In this document: in pieces, positions 28,908 through 36,937 of the stretch
How positions within the stretch are numbered: position 1 is the first letter of the stretch
How the letters are laid out: each line of letters opens with the position of its first letter
Assembly (NCBI GenBank): GCA_913062845.1
Contig: CAJXVZ010000019.1
Span: forward strand, 1 to 45,983
DNA from: an uncultured Psychroflexus sp.
Lineage (GTDB): Bacteria > Bacteroidota > Bacteroidia > Flavobacteriales > Flavobacteriaceae
Reading direction: 5' to 3'
Length of the DNA stretch: 45,983 bases
Notes under the pieces: model-generated
Database searches by the model: none
Seen by the model: only the letters and a program-made list of their open reading frames with translations
What the model was told of the DNA's origin: nothing
Made by a program: the position numbers and the translations under genes

Positions 28908-30314
28908 ATGAAAAACACATACTTTAACCTGATTGATCAGAGCTTTTACTTTCCACAGGAAGGCTTTGATCTGCGAGACGACTACCTGACCTTTCACGGC
29001 GTTTCTCTCAAGTACCTCATCGAAAAACACGGTACGCCTTTTAGATTTATCTACCTGCCAAAAATTGGTGACCAGATCAAAAAGACGCGCAACCTGTTTA
29101 ATCGGGCCATCAAAAAAAACAACTATAAAGGCAAGTACCATTTTTGCTATTGTACCAAGTGTAACCACTTTTACCATGTCATTAATGAAGCCCTCAAACA
29201 TAAGGTCAATCTGGAAACTTCATCAGAATTTGACATCGATTTGATCCTGAATCTGGCAGCAAAAGGCCAGGTCGATAAGAACAGGCTCATAATCCACAAT
29301 GGCTATAAAACCGAAGGCTATCTCAAGAAAATTGTGCAATTGCAGGAAAACGGATTTAAAAATTCTATTCTTATCCTGGACAGTACCCACGAAATTGACA
29401 GACTGGAAAAATTAAATCCCAAACAAGTTCTGAAAATAGGTATCCGCATGTCCATCAATGAGGAAGCGCAGTCGGCCTATTACACTTCCCGATTGGGTAT
29501 TCCTTCTAAGGATATCATTGAGTTTTTCAACACAAAGATCAAAAACAACGACAAGTTTGAATTGAAGATGCTGCACTTCTTCGTTGATTCCGGAATCAAG
29601 GACACACTTTACTATTGGGGTGAATTCCAACGTGCACTGAAATTATATACCGATCTTAAAAAGGAAAGTGAAAATTTGACCTCTTTCAATCTTGGAGGTG
29701 GCTTCCCGATCAAAAATTCACTGGGCTTCGAATACGATTATGAATACATGATCAACGAGATCGTTAAAAATATTAAAGAGGCTTGTGAAAAGGAAAATGT
29801 ACTTGAACCGGATCTGTTTACAGAATTCGGAAAATATACAGTTGGCGAAGCCGGTGCCATCATATTTGAAGTCCTGGAACAAAAACACCAGAATGATACC
29901 GAAACCTGGTATATCATCAACAATTCTTTGATGAATACCATTCCGGATGCCTGGAGCATCAATGAAAAGTTTATACTTCTTCCCGTCAATAAATGGGATA
30001 ACGAATACCGACGTGTCAATATTGGAGGTATAAGCTGTGATCATTCTGATTATTACAATTCTGAAGATTTCAATCAGGAAGTGCTTTTACCAAAATACGA
30101 AAACAAGGATAAGGAGCCTTTATACCTCGGTTTCTTTCATACAGGTGCTTATCAGGATTCTATAAGTGGCTATGGCGGTATAAAACATTGTCTTATTCCT
30201 TCGCCAAAGCATGTCATAATAGACAGAGATGAAAAGGGTAATTTTATAGACTATGTCTACCGCGAGGAACAATCTGCAATAGATATGTTTAATATTTTAG
30301 GATACAATTCATGA
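28908..30314 (+). CDS. speA: Arginine decarboxylase, fold-III PLP enzyme
   Basis: A 468-residue alanine-racemase-fold decarboxylase, annotated in Bacteroidota as biosynthetic arginine decarboxylase, making agmatine. The PLP lysine is Lys84 in YCTKCNHF. The phosphate-binding glycines are in FNLGGGFPI. The EPGR-like segment is changed to EFGKYTVGEAGA, and the catalytic Cys is Cys377 in GISCDHSDYY. It is much shorter than E. coli SpeA (about 630-660), so substrate choice against ornithine or diaminopimelate rests on context. The next gene, an agmatinase, overlaps it by four bases (ATGA), which makes arginine the natural substrate. Confidence 0.86.
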   Translation: MKNTYFNLIDQSFYFPQEGFDLRDDYLTFHGVSLKYLIEKHGTPFRFIYLPKIGDQIKKTRNLFNRAIKKNNYKGKYHFCYCTKCNHFYHVINEALKHKVNLETSSEFDIDLILNLAAKGQVDKNRLIIHNGYKTEGYLKKIVQLQENGFKNSILILDSTHEIDRLEKLNPKQVLKIGIRMSINEEAQSAYYTSRLGIPSKDIIEFFNTKIKNNDKFELKMLHFFVDSGIKDTLYYWGEFQRALKLYTDLKKESENLTSFNLGGGFPIKNSLGFEYDYEYMINEIVKNIKEACEKENVLEPDLFTEFGKYTVGEAGAIIFEVLEQKHQNDTETWYIINNSLMNTIPDAWSINEKFILLPVNKWDNEYRRVNIGGISCDHSDYYNSEDFNQEVLLPKYENKDKEPLYLGFFHTGAYQDSISGYGGIKHCLIPSPKHVIIDRDEKGNFIDYVYREEQSAIDMFNILGYNS

Positions 30315-31162
30315 GTACATACGCGGGCATATCTAAAGAACTAGCCACTTTTGAAAAGGCCAAGATCTTATTACAGTCTATTCCTTATGATGGCACATCA
30401 ACCTGGGGAAAAGGCGCTGACAAGGGTTTTGAAGCTTTCCTCGACGCTTCTGAAAACATGGAGCTATACGATATTGAAACTGATTCTGAAGTCTATAAAC
30501 AAGGTGTGCACATTTTGGAAGATATCTCTGAAGACCGTTCACCGGAATTGATGTTTGAAGCCGTTTACAACAAGACCAAAGAACTTCTAAAAACAGGTAA
30601 ATTCCTTACCTTTTTTGGTGGTGAACATTCAGTGAGCATTGGTATCATTAAAGCGCTCTATGAAAAACAATCGGACCTGACCGTGGTCCAGATTGATGCC
30701 CATGCCGATTTGCGACAATCCTATATGGGAACGCCATATAATCACGCCTGTGCTCTTCATGATGCTTCTCAAAATACAAATCTGATCCAGGTAGGCATCA
30801 GAAGTATGGACATTTCAGAAAAACAATATACCAATTACAAACAATGTTATTTTGCACAAGACATTGTCGGCCGAAAAAAATGGATGGAAAAGGCTGTCAG
30901 ACAAATGACAGATAAGGTATATATCACCATTGACCTGGATGCTTTTGATCCCGCTATTCTGCCTGGCACAGGAACACCTGAACCCGGTGGATTAGGCTGG
31001 TACGAGACTTTAGAGTTTTTACTAAAGATCTTTAAAGTCAAGGATGTGATTGGCTTTGACATTGTCGAGCTGGCTCCGATCGAAAACCACAAAGCCTCCG
31101 AATTTCTGGCAGCAAAACTGTATTACAAATTATTATCTTACAAATTTTTAAACCATGGCTAA
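30311..31162 (+). CDS. speB: Agmatinase
   Basis: A 283-residue ureohydrolase that converts agmatine to putrescine and urea. All binuclear manganese ligands are visible: His106 in FGGEHS, Asp129, His131 and Asp133 in DAHADLR, and Asp208 and Asp210 in ITIDLDAFDP. GTGTPEPGGL follows, as in agmatinases. It overlaps the decarboxylase upstream by four bases and the DHS-like gene downstream by eight, so the three are translationally coupled. Guanidinobutyrase or formiminoglutamase activity is less likely given the neighbours. Confidence 0.93.
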   Translation: MSTYAGISKELATFEKAKILLQSIPYDGTSTWGKGADKGFEAFLDASENMELYDIETDSEVYKQGVHILEDISEDRSPELMFEAVYNKTKELLKTGKFLTFFGGEHSVSIGIIKALYEKQSDLTVVQIDAHADLRQSYMGTPYNHACALHDASQNTNLIQVGIRSMDISEKQYTNYKQCYFAQDIVGRKKWMEKAVRQMTDKVYITIDLDAFDPAILPGTGTPEPGGLGWYETLEFLLKIFKVKDVIGFDIVELAPIENHKASEFLAAKLYYKLLSYKFLNHG

Positions 31163-32132
31163 CAAAGGAAAAATATCTCAGTTCATGCTTGAACACTACA
31201 AGCATTTCAATTCTGCAAGTCTTGTAGATGCGGCTAAAGCTTATGAAGCCCATCTGGAATCAGGAAAGAAAATGATGATCACCTTGGCAGGTGCCATGAG
31301 TACAGCAGAATTGGGTAAATCTTTGGCAGAAATGATCAGACAGGATAAAGTGCATATCATTTCAACCACTGGTGCCAATCTTGAAGAAGACATCATGAAT
31401 CTGGTGGCGCATTCGCATTACAAACGTATTCCTGAATACCGCGACCTTACACCTCAGCAGGAATGGGATTTGTTGGAAAAAGGTTTAAATCGTGTTACCG
31501 ATACTTGTATCCCGGAGGAAGAAGCCTTTAGGCGATTACAGCAACAAATTTTTGAGATCTGGAAAACCGCAGAAAATAACGGCGAACGCTATTTCCCGCA
31601 TGAGTATATGTACAAAATGCTGAAATCAGGTGTTTTGGAACAATACTACGAAATTGATCCAAAAAATTCATGGATGCTTGCAGCTGCTGAAAAAAATATC
31701 CCCATCGTTGTTCCGGGCTGGGAAGATTCGACCATGGGAAATATTTTCGCCTCCTACTGTCTAAAAGGTGAACTACAACCTTCTACCATGAAGTCCGGCA
31801 TCGAATACATGACATGGTTAGCCGATTGGTACACTGATAATGCTGAAGATAAAGGCATAGGCTTTTTCCAGATAGGTGGTGGCATTGCAGGTGATTTTCC
31901 TATTTGTGTCGTACCGATGCTTTATCAGGATATGGAACGAACAGACACACCATTTTGGAGTTATTTTTGTCAAATCTCTGACTCCACAACCAGCTTTGGC
32001 TCCTATTCCGGCGCGGTTCCAAATGAAAAAATCACCTGGGGCAAACTGGATATCCATACGCCTAAGTATATCATAGAATCCGATGCAACCATTGTTGCAC
32101 CGCTCATCTTTGCTTATTTGTTAGGTTGGTAG
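31155..32132 (+). CDS. Deoxyhypusine-synthase-like protein, probable polyamine synthase
   Basis: A 325-residue NAD-dependent aminobutyl transferase of the DHS family. The Lys that forms the enzyme-imine intermediate in eukaryotic DHS is retained as Lys297 in SGAVPNEKITWGKLD, and the NAD segments STTGANLEED and PGWEDSTMG are present. The eukaryotic GGGVVKHHI segment reads GGGIAGDFPI here, so the His-containing active-site edge is altered. Bacteria lack eIF5A, and this gene is locked behind arginine decarboxylase and agmatinase. I therefore infer transfer of the aminobutyl group to a free amine, most simply putrescine to homospermidine, a polyamine reported as abundant in flavobacteria. The donor and product remain to be shown. 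Confidence 0.85.
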   Translation: MANKGKISQFMLEHYKHFNSASLVDAAKAYEAHLESGKKMMITLAGAMSTAELGKSLAEMIRQDKVHIISTTGANLEEDIMNLVAHSHYKRIPEYRDLTPQQEWDLLEKGLNRVTDTCIPEEEAFRRLQQQIFEIWKTAENNGERYFPHEYMYKMLKSGVLEQYYEIDPKNSWMLAAAEKNIPIVVPGWEDSTMGNIFASYCLKGELQPSTMKSGIEYMTWLADWYTDNAEDKGIGFFQIGGGIAGDFPICVVPMLYQDMERTDTPFWSYFCQISDSTTSFGSYSGAVPNEKITWGKLDIHTPKYIIESDATIVAPLIFAYLLGW

Positions 32133-35513: not shown

Positions 35514-35542
35514 TTGTCATTTAAACTTTTAAACTATATTTA
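35514..35542 (+). promoter_or_regulatory. Promoter of the structured leader RNA
   Basis: TTG at 35514-35516 is followed after 18 bases by TATATTTA at 35535-35542, one base off the flavobacterial TTG-N17-23-TAnnTTTG pattern. Transcription would start near 35548. Confidence 0.5.
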
Positions 35543-35547
35543 CCCAA

Positions 35548-35689
35548 AAACAAGACTTAGTGACAATTGCAAATAGATATACCTGCCAATACTGGAAAGT
35601 CATAAAGACTTGTCGGGCCAATTATCTATTGTAGATTAAAATAAATATCAACAATATTTTAAAAGTCCGACATATCGTTGGACTTTTTT
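35548..35689 (+). ncRNA. Candidate structured leader/attenuator of the MFS gene
   Basis: About 140 bases between a promoter and an intrinsic terminator, 37 bases before the MFS start. AATAGATA (35572-35579) pairs with TATCTATT (35623-35630) and encloses smaller stems, among them AAGTC/GACTT (35597-35601 with 35607-35611). The base of the latter adjoins TGTCGG (35611-35616), which is complementary to CCGACA (35667-35672) inside the 5' arm of the terminator. The RNA therefore has two competing states, terminator formed or sequestered, the hallmark of a riboswitch or attenuator. It matches no riboswitch class that I can recognise. It might alternatively be a free small RNA ending at the terminator. 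Confidence 0.5.
35661..35689 (+). terminator. Intrinsic terminator before the MFS gene
   Basis: AAAAGTCC (35661-35668) pairs with GGACTTTT across an 11-base loop and runs into six T. It lies upstream of and in line with the MFS gene rather than after a coding gene, so it can control entry into that gene. Confidence 0.75.
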
Positions 35690-35725
35690 ATGCCATAAAA
35701 ATCATATTATGTAAAAACCAAAACA

Positions 35726-36937
35726 TTGAAACGTCTTGCTTTAAACTACTTCGGCACTTTTAAAGGTCTGTCAAGAGAAATCTGGTGGTTGGCCTTGATC
35801 ACTTTTATCAACAGATCGGGAACAATGGTCATCCCTTTTCTATCTTTGTATTTATCTGAAGACCTCTCCTTTTCCAAAAATGAGATCGGCTGGATAATGT
35901 TTGCTTTTGGCCTGGGTTCTGTAGCCGGTACCTGGATTGGTGGTAAGGTCACAGATTCTATTGGTTACTATAAAGTATTAGTGAGAAGTTTACTGGGAAC
36001 AGGTGTTCTATTTGTTTTGCTTCAGCTGGCTCAATCCTTTTTTGAAGTATGTGCCGGTATCTTCTTAGTGATGGTTGTTGCTGATACCTTCAGACCGGCC
36101 ATGTTTGTAGCCATAAGTGCTTACAGCAAACCCGAAAATAAAACAAGATCTGTTACCCTGATTCGGTTAGCGATCAACTTAGGTTTCTCTGCAGGCCCTG
36201 CGATTGGTGGACTGATCATATCCACAATGGATTATGATGGATTGTTTTGGGTAGATGGTATAACCTGTGCCTTAGCGGCTTTAATGCTCATCAGGATGCT
36301 AAACCCAAAAAAAACAAAACCCTTTGAAGAAGAAGTTCAAAATAATCCGGTCTCGGCTTACAAAGACAAACCTTACTGGCTGTTTTTTATCGCTATGTTC
36401 ATTTTCATGTTGATATTCATTCAATATTTTTCGACCATGCCTTTATACTACAGAGAGGTTTTTTTAATGTCTGAGGTTAAAATTGGCATTTTGTTGGGTC
36501 TTAATGGATTTTTGATATTTGCTTTCGAAATGCCTCTTATTCATTGGTTAGAAAAAACCAAAAGATCAAAAGTTGGTTTGACCATCATTGGACTTATCTT
36601 GACTGTTATAAGCTTCTTAGTTCTCAATATGTCAGTGTGGATAGGTATCCTGGTTATTGGTATGGTACTCGCTACAGTTGGAGAGATGATAGGATTTCCG
36701 TTCTCCAATGCTTTTGCCATCGAAAGATCAAAAAAAGGAATGAAAGGACAATATTTGGGTATGTATGCAATGTCTTTTTCCTTAGCACATGTGTTTGGAC
36801 ATACATTTGGTTTTAAACTTATTGAAAAAATAGGATACACCTCAACCTGGTATCTTATGGCTCTGATAGGCCTGATTGGTGTGTTATTGTTATGGTTTTT
36901 ACTGAAAACCCTTAGAAATAAAAATGAATTATATTGA
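35726..36937 (+). CDS. MFS transporter, TTG start
   Basis: A 403-residue major facilitator protein with twelve hydrophobic segments. The N-terminal stretch FKGLSREIWWLALITFINRS is the beginning I know from Bacteroidota MFS proteins, so the TTG at 35726 is taken as the start. The next in-frame ATG (in GTMVIPFLSL) would cut into the first helix, and upstream in-frame codons reach a stop without ATG. Motif A-like GTWIGGKVTDSIGYYKVLV lies between helices 2 and 3. The substrate cannot be told. The structured RNA and terminator in the leader suggest its expression is controlled after initiation, perhaps by a ligand related to its cargo. Confidence 0.88.
   Translation: MKRLALNYFGTFKGLSREIWWLALITFINRSGTMVIPFLSLYLSEDLSFSKNEIGWIMFAFGLGSVAGTWIGGKVTDSIGYYKVLVRSLLGTGVLFVLLQLAQSFFEVCAGIFLVMVVADTFRPAMFVAISAYSKPENKTRSVTLIRLAINLGFSAGPAIGGLIISTMDYDGLFWVDGITCALAALMLIRMLNPKKTKPFEEEVQNNPVSAYKDKPYWLFFIAMFIFMLIFIQYFSTMPLYYREVFLMSEVKIGILLGLNGFLIFAFEMPLIHWLEKTKRSKVGLTIIGLILTVISFLVLNMSVWIGILVIGMVLATVGEMIGFPFSNAFAIERSKKGMKGQYLGMYAMSFSLAHVFGHTFGFKLIEKIGYTSTWYLMALIGLIGVLLLWFLLKTLRNKNELY

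Follow-up and report, generated by a model that had tools for sequence, protein, structure and literature searches.

Described attenuators and the layout of the leader

The described system closest to the leader examined here is the attenuator of mef(E)/mel in Streptococcus pneumoniae, whose leader peptide is Mef(E)L (PMC4335068), followed by msrD (PMC10314930); what is said here of published systems draws on excerpts of the papers cited. Shared with our locus are a gene of the MFS type (for efflux in mef(E)/mel, putatively so here), a short leader ORF, an intrinsic terminator and, on our reading, a stall that allows an anti-attenuator to form, but mef(E)/mel has an 8-codon peptide, MTASMRLR, carrying the +x+ motif (PMC10314930) in a 327-nt leader, whereas here there are 19–30 sense codons, the +x+ motif is depleted and the antiterminator strand lies within the ORF. 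The vmlR leader of Bacillus subtilis likewise combines a uORF, an anti-antiterminator, an antiterminator and a terminator, with antibiotic stalling turning the gene on, although its uORF has three codons, its gene is of the ABC-F type and its host belongs to the Bacilli; two of three sequence variants of that uORF were at least as functional (PMC9226507). The trp/his-type attenuators (general description in PMC1183508) also join competing RNA segments to a leader peptide; unlike them, our leader has no regulatory codon run and precedes no biosynthetic gene. The toiL uORF of Escherichia coli topAI similarly senses several ribosome-targeting antibiotics through a uORF, but its targets are the ribosome binding site and Rho (PMC12121999) where we find an intrinsic terminator. 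Nearer in phylogeny, leader-peptide attenuation has been proposed in Flavobacterium psychrophilum, that is, in the same family and with the same general mechanism, but before amino-acid biosynthesis operons and not before an efflux gene (PMC9723704). Leader-like sORFs have been noted in Bacteroides (PMC7366714), and excerpts of a survey of premature terminators (PMC2965389) make no mention of Bacteroidetes or Flavobact-. Searches of open-access literature listed nothing on the present leader.

The leader lies on the plus strand of the window (the whole stretch of 45,983 nucleotides analysed), in front of an MFS transporter gene, and we take it to be in all probability a ribosome-mediated (leader-peptide) transcription attenuator preceding a putative efflux gene. 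Analysis of the sequence supports this reading through the leader ORF, three competing helices, their geometry, frame-specific selection and the linkage to the MFS gene. The presumed regulated gene (35726–36937, TTG start, 403 aa) matches PF07690 (MFS_1) at E 3.1e-56, and its start aligns with the N-termini of its orthologues. NorA is the nearest solved structure by sequence (E 6.5e-8), and the protein falls below every NCBIfam cut-off among the matches listed (25 of 29 families).

Upstream of this gene an earlier note had described a promoter-like site, an 8-bp closing stem, inner stems and a terminator, and its coordinates for the promoter-like site, the stem, the terminator and the start of the MFS gene all proved correct on reading the sequence. 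The promoter-like site, TTG-N18-TATATTTA, spans 35514–35542 (TTG 35514–35516, TATATTTA 35535–35542). The promoter consensus of Bacteroidota is TAnnTTTG, and in many relatives a TTTG-ending box can be seen by eye at a comparable distance from the leader start codon. A sigma-70 consensus scan called neither promoter nor terminator at the window leader; its terminator rule needs a T run past the stem, and here A-T pairs at the stem foot probably absorb the Ts. The closing stem pairs AATAGATA (35572–35579, the 5′ arm of helix 1:2, which we call segment 1) with TATCTATT (35623–35630). The latter lies within segment 2 (35611–35631, TGTCGGGC followed by TATTG), the 5′ strand of the antiterminator, and so doubles as the 3′ arm of helix 1:2. 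Segment 3 (35652–35671, CAATA and GTCCGAC) is the 3′ strand of the antiterminator and contains the 5′ arm of the terminator (segments 3:4; 35661–35689, followed by a T tract), whose stem is formed by AAAAGTCCGAC (35661–35671) and GTTGGACTTTT (35677–35687). TGTCGG at 35611–35616 is indeed, as had been pointed out, the exact complement of CCGACA at 35667–35672. As a whole the leader folds with a z-score of −3.0, none of 200 shuffles being equally stable.

Absent from the earlier note is a leader ORF, assigned by hand, which takes in the antiterminator strand as well as the whole closing stem. It runs from a GTG at 35560 through 24 codons (VTIANRYTCQYWKVIKTCRANYLL) to a TAG at 35632–35634 and contains segment 2. 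Neither of the window's two frames starts with ATG, the leader ORF having GTG and the MFS gene TTG; most of the MFS orthologues inspected start with ATG. The type of mechanism is already known (mef(E), vmlR, trp), while the Rfam searches returned no family for the leader: whether run with gathering or with relaxed thresholds, they gave only sub-threshold matches for the window leader and the leaders of 16 relatives, in keeping with the initial impression that it belonged to no described class.

Occurrence in relatives and linkage to the MFS gene

Orthologues of the MFS protein were found at E<=1e-60 in 226 of 397 sampled genomes of the window's family. The 131 upstream regions analysed come from 130 of these 226 genomes (the better-scoring ones, hence a non-random choice) together with the same-genus orthologue L003; left out were L001 and L004–L007 (the leader itself or weak MFS matches) and L037 (same contig as L018). 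Most relatives have a common plan, in which a promoter-like box is followed by an ATG, an ORF of 20–31 codons counting the stop (19–30 sense codons), 20–37 bases and a terminator, often of the type AAAGTCCGAC...GTCGGACTTT. By a fixed rule that requires an ATG, a leader ORF is present in 109 of the 131 regions, and the window was added separately by hand. When the rule is applied to the 110 retained leaders 109 pass, the exception being the window, compared with a mean of 5.8 (maximum 14) in 100 rounds of dinucleotide shuffling and with two on the reverse strand; as the 110 were picked for having an ORF, 109/131 is the fairer rate. L127 passed the rule but was removed by hand as its hairpin and ORF look unrelated, and L054 was left out of the ribosome-position and peptide-residue counts, an upstream ATG having been picked automatically. 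The 21 regions in which no ORF was accepted, L127 among them, were inspected by eye, and at least one, L101, has an ATG ORF and terminator overlooked by the rule; in its genome (G084) a covariance model of the leader matches the same place.

Within the window's genus, gene and leader have been lost patchily: a close MFS orthologue occurs in two of 27 genomes (G000 and G022), four more having weak matches near 1e-4, and the orthologue in G022 (L003) has no leader. Among 20 further upstream regions inspected by eye, 19 are without a leader (13 from the large genus g128 and six others); the remaining one, L183 (genome G422, outside the family), apparently has a leader of the same plan. The 19 absences and that in L003 speak against our reading. 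A further contig search for related loci gave a single locus, which duplicates L018. The window's own genome was also searched for another copy, a possibility set aside, a DNA search finding only the leader itself and the covariance model giving six further matches at E 0.34–0.88, one of them the same place on the opposite strand, which we take as chance.

Linkage to the MFS gene is close. With Infernal's stricter filters the model has matches at E<=1e-5 in 72 of 199 family genomes, and 71 of the 72 lie just upstream of an MFS orthologue, 53 by coordinates (15–216 bases upstream of the gene on the same strand) and 18 by tblastn. Weaker matches (L145, L147, L148 and L168) were dismissed as chance, having a different layout and no MFS gene in the DNA examined. 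Genome G150 carries a good copy of the leader (L150:121-264, ORF MRNNVTIYRMQKTSFKERNWAYYILC) with no MFS gene in the 2.2 kb examined; G150 also has no MFS match at E<=1e-60, so that this appears to be an orphan attenuator.

Competing helices and the position of the ribosome

Three mutually exclusive helices can be drawn in the leaders: 1:2 within the ORF, 2:3 (the antiterminator) and 3:4 (the terminator). Segment 1 corresponds to ORF codons 4–9 and pairs with the end of the ORF; segment 2, of the form GTYGGRCT..TATATATTG in relatives, occupies the last third of the ORF just ahead of its stop, and segment 3 has the form CAATATA..AAGTCCGAC. When all 110 leaders were aligned with MAFFT and passed to RNAalifold, the terminator was the one structure of any weight to emerge; hairpins of unequal length and helices that exclude one another probably blur such an alignment, and partner-swap tests and counts on named structures were used instead. 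In the swap test, which needs no alignment, the native partner surpassed the average of 40 swapped ones in 92 of 110 leaders for 1:2, 94 for 2:3 and 106 for 3:4, compared with 45 for 1:3, 34 for 1:4 and 59 for 2:4, the non-partner controls.

The counts were made, like the pN/pS estimates below, on the 65 of 110 leaders that can be aligned without large gaps, a choice that leaves the divergent leaders out of these results. In helix 3:4, 97.7% of cells are paired and the covariation score was reached by none of 500 shuffles. For helix 2:3 the figures are 91.3% and one of 500; its doubly changed cells number only five, sliding by −2 or by +1 to +3 yields more of them, and its variation is mainly one-sided (G-C, G-U, A-U), which we ascribe to strands that serve two partners and encode peptide as well. 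Helix 1:2 is paired in 85.4% of cells with a covariation score reached by none of 500 shuffles, but its pairs changed on both sides show no excess over shuffles (159/500), and versions slid by −3 and −2 equal or surpass it in doubly changed pairs and cells. Counts and swap tests together strongly support the terminator, the antiterminator is supported by its level of pairing and by the partner swap, and helix 1:2 more weakly. In the window the antiterminator duplex is predicted at −17.8 kcal/mol with none of 1000 one-strand shuffles as good, and the 1:2 pairing, which holds the closing stem, is no better than chance (126 of 1000 shuffles as good).

The effect of a ribosome on this competition was modelled by equilibrium folding, not kinetics, masking a footprint of 30 bases in an RNA that ends at the terminator loop; the measure was how far the 5′ arm of the terminator pairs with segment 2, averaged over 109 leaders. 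With the P site at codons 1–13 this pairing has a mean of 0.89–0.92; it falls to 0.72 at codon 14, 0.39 at codon 15 and 0.01–0.05 at codons 17–24, the place of the drop being set by the position of segment 2. In long ORFs it climbs again, to 0.28 at codon 26 and 0.53 at codon 27 in a scan that extends to the stop codon, and this rise counts against our reading. For a terminating ribosome the pairing has a mean of 0.15 and a median of 0.004. Pairing with a ribosome stalled at codon 10 exceeded pairing without a ribosome in 104 of 109 leaders and pairing with a ribosome at the stop in 108. In silico, then, the position of the ribosome decides which helix forms. The idea that an untranslated leader would be off is weakly supported in general and unsupported in the window, since the antiterminator forms without a ribosome as well (mean 0.73 in the 109 leaders; 0.98 in the window, compared with 1.0 stalled and 0.0 at the stop).

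From these predictions the following sequence of events can be proposed. RNA polymerase would start near 35548 and the 24-codon leader ORF would be translated at once. A ribosome reaching the stop codon would cover segment 2; segment 3 could then fold into the terminator, and the MFS gene would be off. A ribosome stalled within about the first 13 codons would leave segment 2 free to pair with segment 3, so that no terminator forms and transcription reads through. Without translation helix 1:2 may sequester segment 2, though less clearly in the window than in its relatives. The stall would most likely come from a translation inhibitor or a similar ribosome stress, sensed through the nascent peptide at codons 9–13, and the response to it would be an MFS efflux pump. 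Leader translation, transcription termination, the inducer and the cargo of the pump are parts of this scheme that we infer.

The leader peptide and the candidate signal

Pooled pairwise pN/pS on the 65-leader alignment, in which kinship is ignored, is 0.49 in the ORF frame over alignment columns 29–46 (about codons 9–13) and 1.62 and 1.22 in the other two frames, consistent with purifying selection at codons 9–13 in the ORF frame only. Over segment 1 the value is 0.82 and over segment 2 it is 1.33, which implies that conservation of segment 2 is not at the protein level; the stall-relevant part of the leader thus seems to be conserved as peptide and segment 2 as RNA.

These results bear on the first guess made for this locus, ‘riboswitch or attenuator’. 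A metabolite-binding riboswitch would make the RNA at 35572–35630 an aptamer for the cargo of the transporter, with the ORF coincidental, and the closing stem, the inner stems and the terminator/antiterminator switch do look riboswitch-like, as does conservation of the 5′ part at the nucleotide level in relatives. It would, however, have to accommodate an ORF found by rule in 109/131 regions at 20–31 codons counting the stop, purifying selection on codons 9–13 in one frame alone, an inner hairpin whose length varies (by eye) and the lack of any Rfam match at gathering score in the window leader and 16 relatives, and we regard it as most improbable. The attenuator half of the guess is supported, terminator and antiterminator competing in the window and in relatives. 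The riboswitch half, with the cargo of the transporter as its ligand, is not supported: the conserved element resembles a translated ORF, and the RNA switch is arranged, in silico, round the position of a ribosome.

Attenuation by a leader peptide could also answer to amino-acid starvation, as in the trp/his type, slow decoding of the codons of a limiting amino acid being the signal. The three-helix layout is that of the trp type, leader-peptide attenuation has been proposed at amino-acid operons of F. psychrophilum (PMC9723704, in excerpt), and almost all of the 109 leader peptides contain Thr (108) and Lys (107), which leaves a place for Thr or Lys limitation. Yet no run of codons for a single amino acid is seen by eye in the leader peptides, no residue beyond the start Met is present in all 109, 37 are without Trp and the downstream gene encodes an MFS transporter and no biosynthetic enzyme; this explanation is very unlikely.

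What the peptides do have in common is positional. Of the 109 peptides, 73 have a Thr/Ser doublet within codons 10–15, where shuffling gives a mean of 16.0, and Ala, Ser or Thr occurs in codons 5–7 in 82 (shuffled mean 56.9). The macrolide motif +x+ (Arg/Lys-X-Arg/Lys) is depleted within codons 5–13, being found in nine of 109 where shuffling gives a mean of 19.6, and a macrolide-inducible arrest of the mef(E)L/ErmDL type was accordingly set aside. In its discussion of chloramphenicol, PMC12121999 (in excerpt) describes pronounced stalling after Ala, Ser or Thr codons; that the same rule might apply to this leader family is a guess by analogy.

The window peptide resembles those of its relatives. 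Its mean similarity to the 109 leader peptides is 12.8 in frame, whereas four other offsets give −2.9 to −5.6; shuffling the order of codons in the window ORF gives a mean of 6.7 (eight of 300 as high as native), the ORF sits at the same distance from the terminator as those of relatives, and the codons AAT AGA ... TGC CAA TAC TGG are matched in frame by AAT AGA TGT CAA AAC TGG in L146. The window copy is nevertheless a divergent member of the family and may be a weakened one. Were it a decaying relic with a weakened start codon, it would be near constitutive or off, which is compatible with the attenuator reading for the relatives. Such decay would fit the GTG start, the missing Thr/Ser doublet, the lowest score among the 72 model matches (54 bits against 164 for the best), a 1:2 pairing no better than shuffled and the one other close same-genus orthologue, which has no leader; it fits poorly with a frame open over 24 codons that resembles relatives, with an antiterminator and terminator that are both intact and with the predicted contrast of 1.0 stalled against 0.0 at the stop. 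On balance we think it unlikely, though worth keeping in mind.

Close behind the MFS gene, 12 of 30 loci carry an ORF of 124–145 aa; those tested (L010 and L022) encode VOC (glyoxalase/bleomycin-type) proteins, and two tested loci (L010 and L028) have a YpdA-family gene behind the MFS gene. In the window a thioredoxin-like gene lies downstream in place of the VOC gene. The VOC and YpdA-family neighbours favour a detoxification reading and suggest, from sequence, a detoxification operon tied to bacillithiol-type redox. They also bear on a metabolite-sensing arrest peptide of the TnaC or SpeFL type, in which the ribosome would stall when a small molecule exported by the pump is in excess. Such a peptide would use the same RNA logic and could show the same peptide-level selection at codons 9–13, but the ten neighbour proteins that were tested included no conspicuous biosynthetic partner and several that are detoxification-like, and we consider it improbable.

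For the attenuator responding to ribosome stress, which we prefer, a more specific form can be offered tentatively, as one possibility that we would not expect to hold in full. It would be a new, family-wide drug-sensing arrest peptide of Flavobacteriaceae without +x+, in which a conserved Thr-Ser step at about codons 13–14 stalls inhibitor-bound ribosomes and so induces a chromosomal efflux operon; the inhibitor would act at the peptidyl transferase with a phenicol- or oxazolidinone-like context rule, and the operon would consist of the MFS gene, sometimes followed by VOC and YpdA. The mRNAs of this phylum are mostly without Shine-Dalgarno sites, and if this form is true drug-type attenuation by the ribosome would operate there. 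At the more general level, a guessed riboswitch has become a specific, testable device, which the fixed rule picks out in 109 genomes of other genera and which predicts which codons should carry a stalled ribosome. It would make the efflux operon of Flavobacteriaceae an inducible one, and the inducer would reveal the natural substrate of the pump or the stress that it answers.

Two further loci in the window can be recorded. Three adjacent ORFs at 28908–32132 on the plus strand form a polyamine-like cluster (a decarboxylase-like and an arginase/agmatinase-like protein, both recognized by eye, and a member of the deoxyhypusine-synthase family, PF01916); lying 3 kb upstream they were considered as a clue to the cargo and set aside, as two genes intervene. 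At 1183–1299 on the minus strand there is a 6S-Flavo RNA (RF01685), which scores 96.9 bits against a gathering score of 85.
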